The translations under genes were made by a program, and so were the position numbers. The notes below the pieces were generated by a model. The model worked only from the letters and a program-made list of their open reading frames with translations. It was not told the DNA's origin and did no database searches. DNA of 64,000 bases from Synergistaceae bacterium (GTDB taxonomy: Bacteria > Synergistota > Synergistia > Synergistales > Aminobacteriaceae). Shown here piece after piece: positions 57,989 to 62,596 of this stretch. Location: NCBI GenBank assembly GCA_018436595.1, contig JAHDLC010000007.1, positions 1-64,000 of the forward strand, read 5' to 3'. Every line of letters begins with the position of its first letter. Position 1 is the stretch's first letter.

Positions 57989-58816
57989 GTGAGCTGGTTT
58001 GATTCTGTGGTGTATTCTGCCGAGGCGGTGGGCCCCTGGAAAATGGTTTCCTTCCTCGAACTCAGGAGGGCTGCGGCCATGGAAGGCCTGTCCCCCGCAG
58101 AAGCGGAAATATATTGCCTGGAAAACGGATACGTCCCGTCGAGGTACATCCGGAGCATGGGAACTCTCGGACCCGACGGTCAGCTCCGCCTTCTCTCGTC
58201 CTGCGCGGCCGTTATCGGCTGCGGCGGCCTCGGGGGGCTCGTGGGGGACCTGATGGCCCGTGCCGGGGTCGGCCGGCTTGTGTTTGTGGACGGCGATGTA
58301 TTCGATGAAACGAACCTGAACCGGCAGCTCCTGGCGACGGAGAGACTGCTCGGGAAGTCAAAGGCGAAGACGGCGGCCGCGCGGGCCATGGAGATCAATG
58401 GATCGGTGGATGCCGAAGGGAGGCAGTGCCGGTTCGATTCCTTTACTGCCGACGGGATTCTCGAGGGGGTGGACATCGTGGTGGATTGCCTCGACAGCCT
58501 CTCGTCCCGGAGAACCCTCTTTTCGGAGTGTGCCGTCCGGGGAATTCCCCTGGTGTCCGGAGCCATCGCGGGTTTCTGGGGACAGGTGGGCGTGGTGCTT
58601 CCGGGAGACGAGACCCTCACCGGCTACCTTGCCGGCGAGTCTGATACGGGAGTGGAGGCCGAAACAGGGAACCCGCCGTTTACGCCTGCCCTCGTGGCCG
58701 CCCTGCAATGCGCCCAGGCGGTGAAGCTCCTCACGGGGAAGGGGACGGTGCTCACGGAACAGCTCCTGTGGATCGACCTCGCCGACGACGAATTCACCCG
58801 GCTCAGGCTTCGCTGA
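57989..58816 (+). CDS. ThiF/MoeB-family adenylyltransferase (E1-like)
   Basis: This 275-residue protein has a ThiF core with the ATP-binding loop IGCGGLGG (about residues 75-82), the ATP-contact region VDGDVFDETNLNRQLL (about 99-114) and the downstream DCLDS strand. It lacks the two CxxC zinc pairs of MoeB and ThiF. The 65 N-terminal residues are a helical extension. It is divergent from the AOR and close to a MoaD-like gene, so it probably charges that carrier. GTG 57989 has GGAGGTGA upstream. Confidence 0.85.
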   Translation: MSWFDSVVYSAEAVGPWKMVSFLELRRAAAMEGLSPAEAEIYCLENGYVPSRYIRSMGTLGPDGQLRLLSSCAAVIGCGGLGGLVGDLMARAGVGRLVFVDGDVFDETNLNRQLLATERLLGKSKAKTAAARAMEINGSVDAEGRQCRFDSFTADGILEGVDIVVDCLDSLSSRRTLFSECAVRGIPLVSGAIAGFWGQVGVVLPGDETLTGYLAGESDTGVEAETGNPPFTPALVAALQCAQAVKLLTGKGTVLTEQLLWIDLADDEFTRLRLR

Positions 58817-58849
58817 AAGGAGGACGGCCGGAGGAGAATCCCTTGACCT

Positions 58850-60160
58850 TCAGGCGGGCAGCCATTCTTTCCGCAATTCGGCCATCAGAAGGCTGATCTC
58901 CGAGATGAGGGCATAGAGCAGGGAAGGAAGGCCTTCGAGGGAGCCGCCTTTTGCCGCTTCCTCCATGGCTTGTGCGAGCCCGGCGGCTTTTTTCGCCCCG
59001 AAAAAGACGAGATTGCCCTTTAACCTGTGGGCATGGGATGCCAGAAGAAGCCGGTCACCGTGAGCGACAGCCCGCTTCATTTCTGCCATGAGGGGAGGGG
59101 CCGTCTGCAGGAAAATTCCCGCGGCTTCCGCCGCCGCCTCCCGGTTTCCCCCAGTGGCCGCGAGCAGAGGATTTTCCTCCGCAATATCCCCTGGTACATT
59201 AAATTCTTTGTGGGGCAGAAAGGGGGACAGTATCCCGGCCATCTCTCCGGGGGATGACGATTTCGGCAGAAAACCGTCCATCCCCGCTTCAATGCATCTT
59301 TTCCTGTCCTCCTCTTCCCGGGAGGCTGATACGGCCAGAACGGGAATTCTCCCTGCCGTTCCCTTTTCCCTGCGGCGAAGGGCCCGGGTTGCTTCAAGAC
59401 CATCCATTACAGGCATCTGGATGCCCATGAGGATGAGGTCAAACCTGTGCTTTTCAGCAAGGGCGAGGACCTTCCGCCCGTCGGATGCCTTCATTACGGT
59501 GAAGCCAAGGGCCTCAAGGTTGGACTCGATGATCCGGGCGCTGAGGGGATTGTCCTCCGCCAGGAGAACAGTGAACGGAACTTCTTCCTTCCCGGAGTCC
59601 TCACCGGGGGAGGCATCGGAAAACGTCATGGCAAAGGATGAGGCTTTTTTTCCGGCTTCCGCTGAAAAGAGGATTTCAATGCCTTCCGGAAGGTTCCGCC
59701 TGGCCACGGCGTACAGGGAAATCTTCTCCCCTTCCGCTCCTGCGGCTTTTTTGATGGTTTCTTCCAGCATGTGTTCCAGCCCGGAGAGGTCACCTTCAAC
59801 GAGAGCCGGGACCGACGGGTCGATTTCCACTGTGACGGGGAATGTTTTTTTGTCAGCGGCGGTCTTTCCCGCCGCTGACACGCAGGCCGAAGAAATGGAG
59901 AAGGGAGTTTTCTTTTCCGGTGCCCCTTCAACGGTCCGGGAGCAGGAAAGGTGCCCGAGAAGGGAAAGGGCTTCTTCCGCCAGTTTCTTTATGGAACGGG
60001 GGCGCCAGGCGGTACCTCCTGCAGCCTTTTCATTCCGGGCGTCCTCTCCGGCGAGAGTGTAAATGTTTTCAAGACACCGGCGGATTTCCTGCAAAACCAG
60101 ATCCCGGCCGGGGGGCGCAGCTACGGCGGCCGGCTTTGAAAGACGGGGCCGTCCTGTCAT
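58850..60160 (-). CDS. Receiver/HPt phosphotransfer protein with degenerate parts
   Basis: The 436-residue protein has three parts. The N-terminal 190 residues resemble a histidine-kinase ATPase-like fold without a clear N-box or G-box. Residues about 197-320 form a receiver domain (VLLAEDNPLSARIIESNLEAL), but the phosphoacceptor Asp of DLILMD is Gly246 (LMGIQMPVMDG). An HPt domain (about 345-436) keeps its His378 in HAHRLKGN. It may be a pseudo-receiver scaffold or phosphate sink. The next gene upstream is a response regulator, overlapping by four bases, so the two act together. Confidence 0.75.
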   Translation of the reverse strand: MTGRPRLSKPAAVAAPPGRDLVLQEIRRCLENIYTLAGEDARNEKAAGGTAWRPRSIKKLAEEALSLLGHLSCSRTVEGAPEKKTPFSISSACVSAAGKTAADKKTFPVTVEIDPSVPALVEGDLSGLEHMLEETIKKAAGAEGEKISLYAVARRNLPEGIEILFSAEAGKKASSFAMTFSDASPGEDSGKEEVPFTVLLAEDNPLSARIIESNLEALGFTVMKASDGRKVLALAEKHRFDLILMGIQMPVMDGLEATRALRRREKGTAGRIPVLAVSASREEEDRKRCIEAGMDGFLPKSSSPGEMAGILSPFLPHKEFNVPGDIAEENPLLAATGGNREAAAEAAGIFLQTAPPLMAEMKRAVAHGDRLLLASHAHRLKGNLVFFGAKKAAGLAQAMEEAAKGGSLEGLPSLLYALISEISLLMAELRKEWLPA

Positions 60161-60867
60161 TTTTTGCCCATGGCGGTGTAGCGTTTGAGGGGCCGTCCGC
60201 TGGTCCGGTATTCGAAGCTGATTTCCGCTAGGCGTTTTTCAGCGAGGTATTCCAGATATCGCCGGGCCGTGGACCGGGAGATGGAAAGCTTTTCTCCAAG
60301 TTCCAGCGCCGTCGGGCTGCCGGACTCACCGAGAATTCCCATCACCAGCGCGAGGGTCTCCTTCTGGAATCCCTTGGGGAGGGTCTCGTTGTCCTCAGGC
60401 TGTCCTAAGGGCCTATGCCCGATTTCGAAGAAAGCGTCCACTTCTTCCTGGGTTGTTTCCTCCCTGACGCCCCGGAGGCGCATCCGGTGTTCCAGGTAGT
60501 TTTCGAGGGAAGCCCTGAATCTCTGGAGGGAGTAGGGCTTGATCATGTAATCGAAGGCTCCGAGAGTACGCGCCCGTGACACAAGATCGGTTTTTTTTCC
60601 TGCGGAAACAAGGATCACGTCGGATGTGTTCCCCCTGGACCTGAGTCTCTTGAGAGCTTCAAGGCCGGAGAGGCGGGGCATGAAGATATCCATGACGATC
60701 AGGTCGGCGCTGTTTCGCTGAAAGAATTCAAGAAGCTCGTAGCCGTCACCGACTGTTCCGGCGACGGTGAAACCCGTCAACTGGCGTACCGCCTGAACAT
60801 GAAGACTGCACACCATAGGATCGTCCTCTGCGATGAGTACCCGCACGGGAAGCTGAACATCCACCAC
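60157..60867 (-). CDS. CitB/DcuR-type response regulator
   Basis: The 236-residue protein has an intact N-terminal receiver (LIAEDDPMVCSLHVQAV, acceptor Asp in LIVMDIFMPRLSGLEAL near residue 58, Lys in VSAGKK) and a C-terminal winged/HTH domain (ALELGEKLSISRSTARRYLEYL, about 188-209) like CitB/DcuR regulators of carboxylate uptake. The start is GTG 60867 (or the adjacent GTG 60864) with AGGAGGAGG upstream. The cognate sensor kinase is not in the window; the HPt-containing protein overlaps it downstream. Confidence 0.88.
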   Translation of the reverse strand: MVDVQLPVRVLIAEDDPMVCSLHVQAVRQLTGFTVAGTVGDGYELLEFFQRNSADLIVMDIFMPRLSGLEALKRLRSRGNTSDVILVSAGKKTDLVSRARTLGAFDYMIKPYSLQRFRASLENYLEHRMRLRGVREETTQEEVDAFFEIGHRPLGQPEDNETLPKGFQKETLALVMGILGESGSPTALELGEKLSISRSTARRYLEYLAEKRLAEISFEYRTSGRPLKRYTAMGKK

Positions 60868-60888
60868 GCATCCTCCTCCTTCGATCTC

Positions 60889-60917
60889 ATTATATTCCCT
60901 GAACCGCCGAGCGTAAA
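60889..60917 (-). promoter_or_regulatory. Promoter of the response regulator genes
   Basis: On the minus strand TTTACG (60917-60912), a 17-base spacer and a perfect TATAAT (60894-60889). The ribosome site lies about 12 bases beyond the -10 box, so the leader is very short. Confidence 0.55.
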
Positions 60918-61033
60918 CAATATGAACACAATGACCTGAATGCCCAATAGTCTTGGCTTTTTTTATAGTAGGGCCGAAAATACAACTACAAAACACGATC
61001 ACTTCGTTCGGTTGATGAACTTCCCCACGCACG

Positions 61034-61091
61034 GGTCCCGCAAGGCGAACGGTCCGCCCCAGACCTTCATTTTGCGGGGCCTCCTTTTTTT
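61034..61091 (+). terminator. Terminator without an assigned upstream gene
   Basis: GGTCCCGCAA (61034-61043) pairs with TTGCGGGGCC (61072-61081), one G-T pair, enclosing a GGCG/CGCC stem, and is followed by TCC and a T7 run (61085-61091). On the plus strand no gene ends before it, so it may close a small untranslated transcript starting near 60.95 kb. Confidence 0.5.
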
Positions 61092-61105
61092 CTCCTCCCC
61101 TCCTT

Positions 61106-61278
61106 CCTAAATCCGCAGGCAGCGGGGAGCGTCACCGGTGCTCGCTTGGGCCGCCGGTGCAGATTGTCGTCCTTGACAACTGCACCTGAAACCGACATCC
61201 TTGTCGGTTTCTCGGCCCGGGCGCTGTGCCCGGCGACACTCCCTCTGCCAGGAGAACCTGCGGAATTAGGTCCTTTTT
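61106..61278. ncRNA. Multi-hairpin structured element, candidate non-coding RNA
   Basis: A closing stem of 13 of 14 pairs joins 61106-61119 with 61257-61270. Inside are GTGCAG-A-TTGTC/GACAA-CTGCAC (61157-61185), a perfect 10-bp GAAACCGACA/TGTCGGTTTC hairpin (61188-61211) and CCGGGC/GCCCGG (61217-61233). CACCGG/CCGGTG (61133-61159) competes with the second stem for three bases. On the plus strand ACCT/AGGT pairs and TTTTT (61274-61278) make a terminator-like end. On the minus strand the two hairpin loops read CAAGGA. Which strand is transcribed is unclear. I do not recognise a known family. Confidence 0.5.
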
Positions 61279-61284
61279 CCCGTA

Positions 61285-61313
61285 TTGACAATCCTTCCGG
61301 CCGGAGTCACTAT
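61285..61313 (+). promoter_or_regulatory. Possible promoter of the 55-residue membrane protein gene
   Basis: A perfect TTGACA (61285-61290) is followed at 17 bases by CACTAT (61308-61313), a weak -10 box. The leader would be about 25 bases. Confidence 0.4.
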
Positions 61314-61342
61314 GAAGGCAAAACGAAGGAGGACGATAAAGA

Positions 61343-61510
61343 ATGTTTTTTGCCCACTCCGTGGCTCCCTTCATTTTGTACGGATGCTCCGCCGTCCTGG
61401 TTCTGCTGGGGTTCAGAAGAATCCGCCTGGGAAGTACTCTCAAGGGTGTTATTGATATCGTGGGAGCAGGGGCCATTGCCATTATGGGATGGTCACTGGG
61501 CAACCCCTGA
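61343..61510 (+). CDS. Small membrane protein of 55 residues
   Basis: This short gene has GAAGGAGGA well placed upstream of ATG 61343 and third positions rich in G and C. The product starts MFFAHSVAPFILYG and has two hydrophobic segments (about residues 6-24 and 36-52) joined by a basic loop FRRIRLGSTLKG. It ends at TGA 61508-61510. No family is recognised; it could be a transporter accessory peptide or a small hydrophobic toxin. It lies between the structured element and the PPIase gene. Confidence 0.7.
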   Translation: MFFAHSVAPFILYGCSAVLVLLGFRRIRLGSTLKGVIDIVGAGAIAIMGWSLGNP

Positions 61511-61544
61511 CCCCGCTTTTTCCCTTTTCCCCCGCGTGCGGATT

Positions 61545-61586
61545 GCCCCCGAGGGGGGGCGGTTCAGCATTTCTGCCGTTTTTTTC
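61545..61586 (+). terminator. Possible terminator of the small membrane protein gene
   Basis: GCCCCC/GGGGGC (61545-61550 with 61555-61560) forms a short GC stem, and a T7 run lies about 20 bases later. The distance makes this uncertain. Confidence 0.4.
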
Positions 61587-61657
61587 CCCTCCGTTTGTGG
61601 TACACTTTTCCGGATTTGATGCTGTTTACTATGTTCACCATCCAGGGAGGAATTTCT

Positions 61658-62596
61658 ATGAAAGCGTTTCGTACTCTGAGCTCCGCACTGCTCGTTCTGC
61701 TTCTTCTGGCCTTTGCCGCCGGCGCCGAAACGGCAAAGACCGACGACCCGGCCCCCGAGGTCAAGGCCCCCGCTGCCGAAGCAAAGGCTCCCGTCGATCC
61801 GGAGACCGTTCTGGCCCGGGTGGGGGAGACCGAAATCCGGATGAAGGATGTGAGGGAAATCCTGGGCAAGCTCGATCCCCAGAGAGCCTCCATGTACGAC
61901 AATGAAATGGGACACAGGGCTATCCTTGAGGAAATGGTCAACATGGAGCTTTTCCTTCTCCTCGGAAAAGAACTTGAGGTGGAGAAAGACCCCGGTTTCG
62001 CCGAGATGCTGGAAAGCGTGAAAGAGGATATTATCCGCAGGTTTGCGGTCGACAGGGTGATGAAGGACGTGAAGGTCACTCCTGAAGATATCGCCGGGTA
62101 CTATGAAAAGAACAGGGAGCATTTTGCCGTTCCCGAGAGCGTGAGAGCCTCCCACATTCTGGTGAGCGGCGACCAGGAGATGCAGAAGGTCATGGAAGAC
62201 CTGAAAGCGGGAATGTCCTTCGAGGATGCGGCGAAGAAGCATTCCACCTGCGCGTCGAAGGAGCAGGGAGGCGACCTCGGATATTTCTCCAAAGGGGATA
62301 TGGTGAAGGAATTCAATGATGCCGTATTCGCCATGAAGGTCGGAGAGGTCACGGCAGAACCGGTGAAAACCAAGTTCGGCCTTCACCTGATCAAGCTTGT
62401 CGAGAAGAAGGAAGCCTCGGTCCGGCCTCTGGACGAGGTGAAGGAAGAGCTCAGGGAAGCCCTTGAAAACGACAAAAAGGCAAAGGTCTACCAGGACGAG
62501 CTTTCCAGGCTGAGAGAGAAGTACAAGGTTGAGATCGTCGGAGAGAAAAAGGAAGAAAAGAAAGAGGAAGAAAAAGCGGGAGAAGCCGGAAAGTAG
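61658..62596 (+). CDS. Secreted parvulin-type peptidyl-prolyl isomerase (PrsA/SurA-like)
   Basis: The 312-residue protein has a signal peptide (LSSALLVLLLLAFAAGAE), a low-complexity Ala/Pro/Lys linker (about residues 24-46), an N-terminal helical chaperone domain and a parvulin domain (about 160-255: VRASHILVSG, QGGDLGYFSKGDMVKEF, TKFGLHLIKL). The C-terminus is a Lys/Glu-rich coiled tail. It folds exported proteins at the cell envelope. GGGAGG precedes ATG 61658. It is monocistronic and closed by a strong terminator. Confidence 0.9.
   Translation: MKAFRTLSSALLVLLLLAFAAGAETAKTDDPAPEVKAPAAEAKAPVDPETVLARVGETEIRMKDVREILGKLDPQRASMYDNEMGHRAILEEMVNMELFLLLGKELEVEKDPGFAEMLESVKEDIIRRFAVDRVMKDVKVTPEDIAGYYEKNREHFAVPESVRASHILVSGDQEMQKVMEDLKAGMSFEDAAKKHSTCASKEQGGDLGYFSKGDMVKEFNDAVFAMKVGEVTAEPVKTKFGLHLIKLVEKKEASVRPLDEVKEELREALENDKKAKVYQDELSRLREKYKVEIVGEKKEEKKEEEKAGEAGK

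Follow-up and report, generated by a model that had tools for sequence, protein, structure and literature searches.

Positions 61106-61270 of the analysed stretch of Synergistaceae DNA (the window, 64,000 nucleotides in full) hold a strongly folding 165-bp sequence, which raises the question of whether it is a regulatory RNA, a mobile DNA element, or an RNA carried by one. The sequence lies in the gap between a response-regulator gene (60157-60867, minus strand) and a small open reading frame (61344-61511, plus strand). The predicted pairing of the terminal arms holds at 13 of 14 positions, and the strong hairpins with their long closing stem are real: the RNA fold of 61106-61270 has an energy of -104.8 kcal/mol against a mean of -62.1 for shuffled sequences (z = -10.3), and the minus strand folded as DNA yields an equal z-score. 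The original prediction took these features for a plus-strand RNA, riboswitch-like or small, with two mutually exclusive stems and a terminator. The closing stem and the strong fold favour such an RNA, as does a promoter-like site, TTGACA-17-CACTAT, just downstream of the element, but its other properties speak against it. The ensemble comprises one stable fold, in which the pairs of the MFE structure have a mean probability of 0.95 and 2 of the 68 fall below 0.5; the exclusive stems are not borne out, and the element displays neither the two competing folds nor the expression platform of a riboswitch. The T-run following 61270 consists of a target-site duplication and host DNA, other copies of the element lack it, and a terminator scan of the region finds none. 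The promoter-like site comes after the element and directly before the downstream reading frame, and the plus strand is therefore not the leader of that frame, which lies within a stretch conserved in the sister species and whose hydrophobic 55-aa product has no Pfam match. The window has no Rfam match at cutoff, while a permissive search returns RF01731 on the minus strand at 40.9 bits, so that the recognisable RNA motif sits on the strand opposite to the one taken as sense. The element is, moreover, a dispersed repeat. The plus-strand RNA is already contradicted by these results, and we reject it as highly improbable. What survives of the proposed unclassified RNA is a structured RNA motif of the TwoAYGGAY type on the minus strand; the unknown plus-strand switch gives way to a mobile element.

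It is close to certain that the window element is a miniature inverted-repeat transposable element (MITE), complete at 165 bp and free of cassettes. Its left terminal inverted repeat, CCTAAATCCGCAGG (61106-61119, plus strand), matches the ends of the IS1380-type insertion sequence found in the same genomes, CCTAAATCCGCA[C/G], and the right repeat, which reads CCTAATTCCGCAGG on the minus strand (61257-61270), has one mismatch to the left arm. The element is flanked by identical 5-bp target-site duplications in the layout TCCTT-element-TCCTT (61101-61105 and 61271-61275), the right one being the start of the T-run first read as a terminator tail. In the sister species (G001) the site is empty, with flanks 85-88% identical and joined without the 165 bp. 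Exact 5-bp duplications border 57 of the 81 extracted copies that have both ends, against 15 of 6480 mismatched pairs (0.2% by chance). Terminal inverted repeats, a length within the 50-500 bp range, target duplications of constant length, dispersed copies with empty sites in relatives, and an autonomous element with matching ends in the same genomes are all found here, as is typical of MITEs. A match to a dispersed repeat family had been named beforehand as evidence against a structured RNA, and such matches occur in the element's own genome and in two congeners.

About 20, 25 and 90 copies of the 165-bp unit, some bare and others extended by one or both of two optional hairpin cassettes, are present in three species of one genus of Synergistaceae. 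The genome of the window (G000, 3.2 Mb) contains some 20 long copies, with identities mostly of 87-98% where the copy is full-length, and an exact count of one conserved hairpin gives 18 copies in G000, 21 in G001 and 91 in the second congener (G002). These two are the only carriers among the four other genomes of the genus. Beyond the genus, a search with the element DNA found it in none of 56 genomes, the hairpin and cassette A are essentially missing, and a covariance model recovers one relic in another genus (G069) and one doubtful match among 183 genomes of the order. The relic adjoins a TPP riboswitch (L115:1330-1439, minus strand). A further long palindromic structure, from a different family of the order (L116:1440-1720, genome G162), contains a GACAUGGAUGUC hairpin; it came up as a relative through the covariance model and was rejected, its hairpin being on the other strand, and it is taken as chance or a different palindrome. 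Viral contigs contain no exact match to the element. The family ranges from 89 to about 280 bp in length, and almost all copies are intergenic by a crude gene call. Orientation along contigs gave one-sided p-values of 0.016 in G000, 0.037 in G002 and 0.79 in G001, and no bias is claimed since the last genome shows none. A 4.4-kb contig of G002 (contig 9, L166) matches a G000 locus (L024) with flanks 99.7-100% identical in species otherwise about 10% apart, and may be either a contaminant in the assembly of G002 or recently transferred DNA. The G002 locus corresponding to window positions 57989-62200 (L178) is rearranged, with a MITE remnant joined to a shortened response-regulator gene, and the G002 gene matching the window reading frame 57989-58816 adjoins another MITE, suggesting recombination or deletion between MITE copies.

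The means of dispersal is indicated by the ends. A longer repeat, at which the assemblies of G001 and G000 break, is bounded by the same terminal repeat CCTAAATCCGCA, and both genomes carry pieces of an insertion sequence at contig ends. An intact copy in G002 spans 1912 bp, is bordered on both sides by the duplication CGGTC and encodes a 533-aa protein. This transposase scores 67.8 bits against PF13701 (cutoff 34.7) and 174.1 bits (E = 3.6e-51) against the IS1380 model NF033539, just below the cutoff of 180. The CCTAAATCCGCA ends and 5-bp duplication of the insertion sequence resemble those of the IS1380 member ISEcp1, which has the left repeat CCTAGATTCTACGT, the right repeat ACGTGGAATTTAGG and 5-bp duplications (PMC7864471); IS1247 likewise produces a 5-bp duplication (PMC3281130). 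The similarity between MITE and insertion sequence is limited to about 14-16 bp at each end, which places the element among the type II MITEs as PMC10969869 defines them. The partner transposase, acting on the same ends in the same genomes, would have moved the MITE in trans. Relatives of the insertion sequence also occur in the two congeners that lack the MITE: the one in G004 is 59% identical and has the same ends, and the one in G003 is decayed. Three times the insertion sequence directly adjoins a MITE, or the end of one, separated from it by no more than the shared 5-bp duplication (L063 and L061, at the ends of G001 contigs 13 and 16, and L068:1393-3321 in G002), as if it had inserted exactly at the target site of the MITE. 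Our literature search found no work on MITEs of Synergistetes or on IS1380 in Synergistota.

The interior of the element is modular. A core made of the closing stem and two hairpins (61118-61249 in the window; alignments A1 and A2, covariance model R1) is present also in copies without terminal repeats. We considered the core as a separate mobile element with ends of its own and discarded this, since the copies without terminal repeats show no evident duplications of their own; at one site shared by two species (L019/L165) the second species retains a recognisable right-end repeat, and eroded old copies fit both observations better. The optional cassettes A and B, hairpins of about 42 and about 47 nt respectively, are found singly or together, and the cassette state often differs at insertion sites common to two species: L023 has cassette A, its orthologue L107 lacks it, and the remainder of the two is nearly identical. 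Gain or loss of cassettes at fixed sites, possibly by gene conversion between copies, is also seen in L019/L165, L014/L135, L018/L124 and L122/L168.

The minus strand of the core carries the motif recognised by Rfam. The window copy aligns at 61154-61211 with positions 49-109 of the TwoAYGGAY model RF01731, at 40.9 bits and E = 1.4e-5 in a permissive search of 221 bases, below the gathering cutoff of 43. Among 20 other loci scanned, one of which (L116) is not a clear copy, three exceed the cutoff: L021 (45.2 bits), L017 (45.0) and L118 (43.4). All three lack terminal repeats, and each aligns on the element's minus strand with the entire model (1-168). The architecture of RF01731, two adjacent hairpins inside an outer stem, is thereby present, as illustrated by the full-length alignment of L021. 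The first minus-strand hairpin of the window (61189-61210) exposes the loop site ACAAGGAUGU at 61204-61195, and the second (61156-61186) exposes UCAAGGACGA at 61176-61167. The loops read AAGGAU and AAGGAC instead of a strict AYGGAY, and the window copy is for this reason called TwoAYGGAY-like and not a strict member. Both sites fit the CsrA/RsmE consensus (A/U)CANGGANG(U/A), as cited in PMC6692469, and are candidate CsrA sites. The clan CL00106 holds both RF01731 and CsrB, as a control on E. coli csrB confirmed. Binding of CsrA by TwoAYGGAY RNAs has been predicted by motif matching, with validation described as pending (PMC4333381). Judged from its sequence, the element combines a MITE with an RNA motif that it bears as cargo.

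The distribution of consensus sites across the family follows the same strand. In 95 copies, the minus strand holds 172 sites where dinucleotide shuffles predict 1.4, the plus strand holds none, and 84 of the copies have exactly two minus-strand sites. Extraction of the copies required resemblance to the motif (within 2-3 mismatches), which biases these counts slightly towards it and leaves about 5 of the 95 copies outside. Variation in both motifs is almost restricted to the N positions of the consensus. In the first hairpin the base preceding GGA is A in 21 copies, U in 13, G in 9 and C in 46, and the A, G, G and A of the motif do not vary in any of the 89 copies. For the second hairpin the counts at the N before GGA are A 69, U 9, G 4 and C 8, those at the N after GGA are C 65, U 23 and A 2, and the other positions are nearly invariant. 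Homologues with compensatory changes, which the original prediction had called for, do exist: two-sided changes occur at 11 pairs, compared with 5.5 after shuffling and 4-6 in the slid controls. These are the weaker evidence, as repair within palindromes could produce some of them.

These patterns bear on whether the RNA motif has any function. The element could be an ordinary MITE, its palindromic interior and GGA hairpins a passive DNA structure inherited from a recent founder without an RNA role, and its similarity to TwoAYGGAY a convergence of two short hairpins. Stable hairpin folds are common among MITEs (reviewed in PMC10969869), and a scan of the element's interior found neither a promoter nor a terminator. 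Copies that lack both motif hairpins have moved as well: L131 and L126 are short mobile copies of this kind, and the exact target duplication of L131 suggests that the hairpins are cargo and not a requirement of transposition. Nor does the core evolve at a uniformly slow rate. In seven pairs of sites shared by two species the core diverges more slowly than the flanks in four, no differently in one and faster in two, and one of the four slower pairs (L086/L149) probably stems from two separate insertions. This mixture does not support uniform selection on the core and weakens the argument that every copy is under selection. The loops, on the other hand, are difficult to reconcile with a passive structure: the N preceding GGA takes all four bases in both loops across the 89-90 readable copies, while the fixed positions are nearly unchanged, and the drift of a founder sequence would not track the CsrA consensus. 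Among the 13 copies whose mobile ends are lost, 11 still have both sites, and three copies of this group align with RF01731 from end to end. It is mainly this pattern at the N positions, and not the fold alone, that leads us to prefer an RNA-protein role, and we regard a purely passive interior as unlikely.

We therefore favour, as the probable account, a type II MITE with 13-14 bp terminal repeats and a 5-bp target duplication, mobilised in trans by an IS1380-type transposase and carrying a TwoAYGGAY-type, CsrA-binding cargo. The cargo would be read on the minus strand, as a long closing stem holding two adjacent hairpins with CsrA/RsmE sites in their loops. Since the element has no internal promoter or terminator detectable by scan, any transcription must come from outside, presumably from the promoters of neighbouring genes. 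In such a transcript the hairpin pair would most likely bind a CsrA dimer, and the outcome would be a local operator on the mRNA, a joint titration of CsrA by many copies, or both. Any regulatory effect is predicted here from sequence and structure.

Within the CsrA reading, the effect could be purely local, each copy acting as a CsrA-controlled leader segment for one neighbour and not as a sponge. The motif strand faces the 5' end of the gene to the left in 46 of 66, 40 of 59 or 20 of 29 copies, about twice as often as not, with p-values of 0.002, 0.009 and 0.06; the figures depend on the gene-call threshold, and the right side is without bias. The lack of a promoter in the element and the Rfam type of RF01731, Cis-reg, also agree with local action. 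About a third of the copies, however, are in the other arrangement, the genes beside the copies are not shown to share a function, and the bias weakens or strengthens with the threshold. The table of Weinberg et al. (2010, PMC2864571), moreover, judges TwoAYGGAY probably not cis-regulatory. In the window copy the motif strand points towards the response-regulator gene at 60867. The only promoter predicted for that gene (60917-60889, minus strand) is situated between gene and element, on the downstream side of the latter, and the response-regulator mRNA may therefore not include this copy. Exclusively local function is on balance doubtful, though some copies of the favoured CsrA-binding cargo might act in this way.

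The distribution of the presumed partner protein is suggestive only. The gene csrA (PF02599) is present in the three element-bearing genomes, G000, G001 and G002, and in G000 it is adjacent to fliW, which it follows. It was not found in the fragmented assemblies (93-95% complete) of the element-free congeners G003 and G004, and the co-occurrence of element and csrA covers five genomes, two of them these fragmented ones. Most relatives in the family have csrA, unlike G003 and G004. A broader interpretation, which we put forward tentatively, is that a MITE adopted a CsrA-binding cargo and was amplified to dozens of copies, forming a mobile multi-locus sponge or a spreader of CsrA control that persists only together with csrA. 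If true, it would be an example of a transposon disseminating the binding sites of a global RNA regulator. TwoAYGGAY is a motif-based proposal of CsrA binding beyond the gamma-Proteobacteria, where such sponges are known (PMC4333381), and dozens of copies per genome with variation at the N positions constitute a natural mutagenesis set that makes the prediction of CsrA binding testable.

The element combines features of several known systems. With the IS1380 family (ISEcp1, IS1247) its partner shares ends beginning with CCTA(A/G)AT, 5-bp duplications and a DDE transposase, whereas the window element itself has no transposase. Like MITEPye1, Correia, ERIC and RUP it is short and intergenic, with terminal repeats, target duplications and a strong fold, according to the descriptions in PMC10969869 and PMC11578231; MITEPye1 is tied to IS1182, unlike the IS1380-type ends seen here, and the accounts of the four families in these sources describe no pair of CsrA-site hairpins as cargo. 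The pneumococcal BOX repeat, likewise composed of modules, offers a parallel to cassettes A and B in its optional inner module, which differs from strain to strain at fixed sites (PMC3049150); the modules and the host are different, and the likeness drawn here is one of architecture. The sponges of the CsrB/RsmZ type (clan CL00106) similarly present GGA sites in loops, following the consensus cited in PMC6692469, but csrB is a single annotated gene in E. coli, while the element has two sites per copy, many dispersed mobile copies, and no promoter or terminator found within it. In structure the element resembles the TwoAYGGAY RNA, with a long imperfect outer stem, two adjacent hairpins in the same order and A-N-GGA-N loops. 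The occurrences listed for that RNA in the table of Weinberg et al. (PMC2864571) are the human gut, gamma-Proteobacteria and Clostridiales; the element described here resides in Synergistaceae, in 20-90 copies, between the ends of a transposon.
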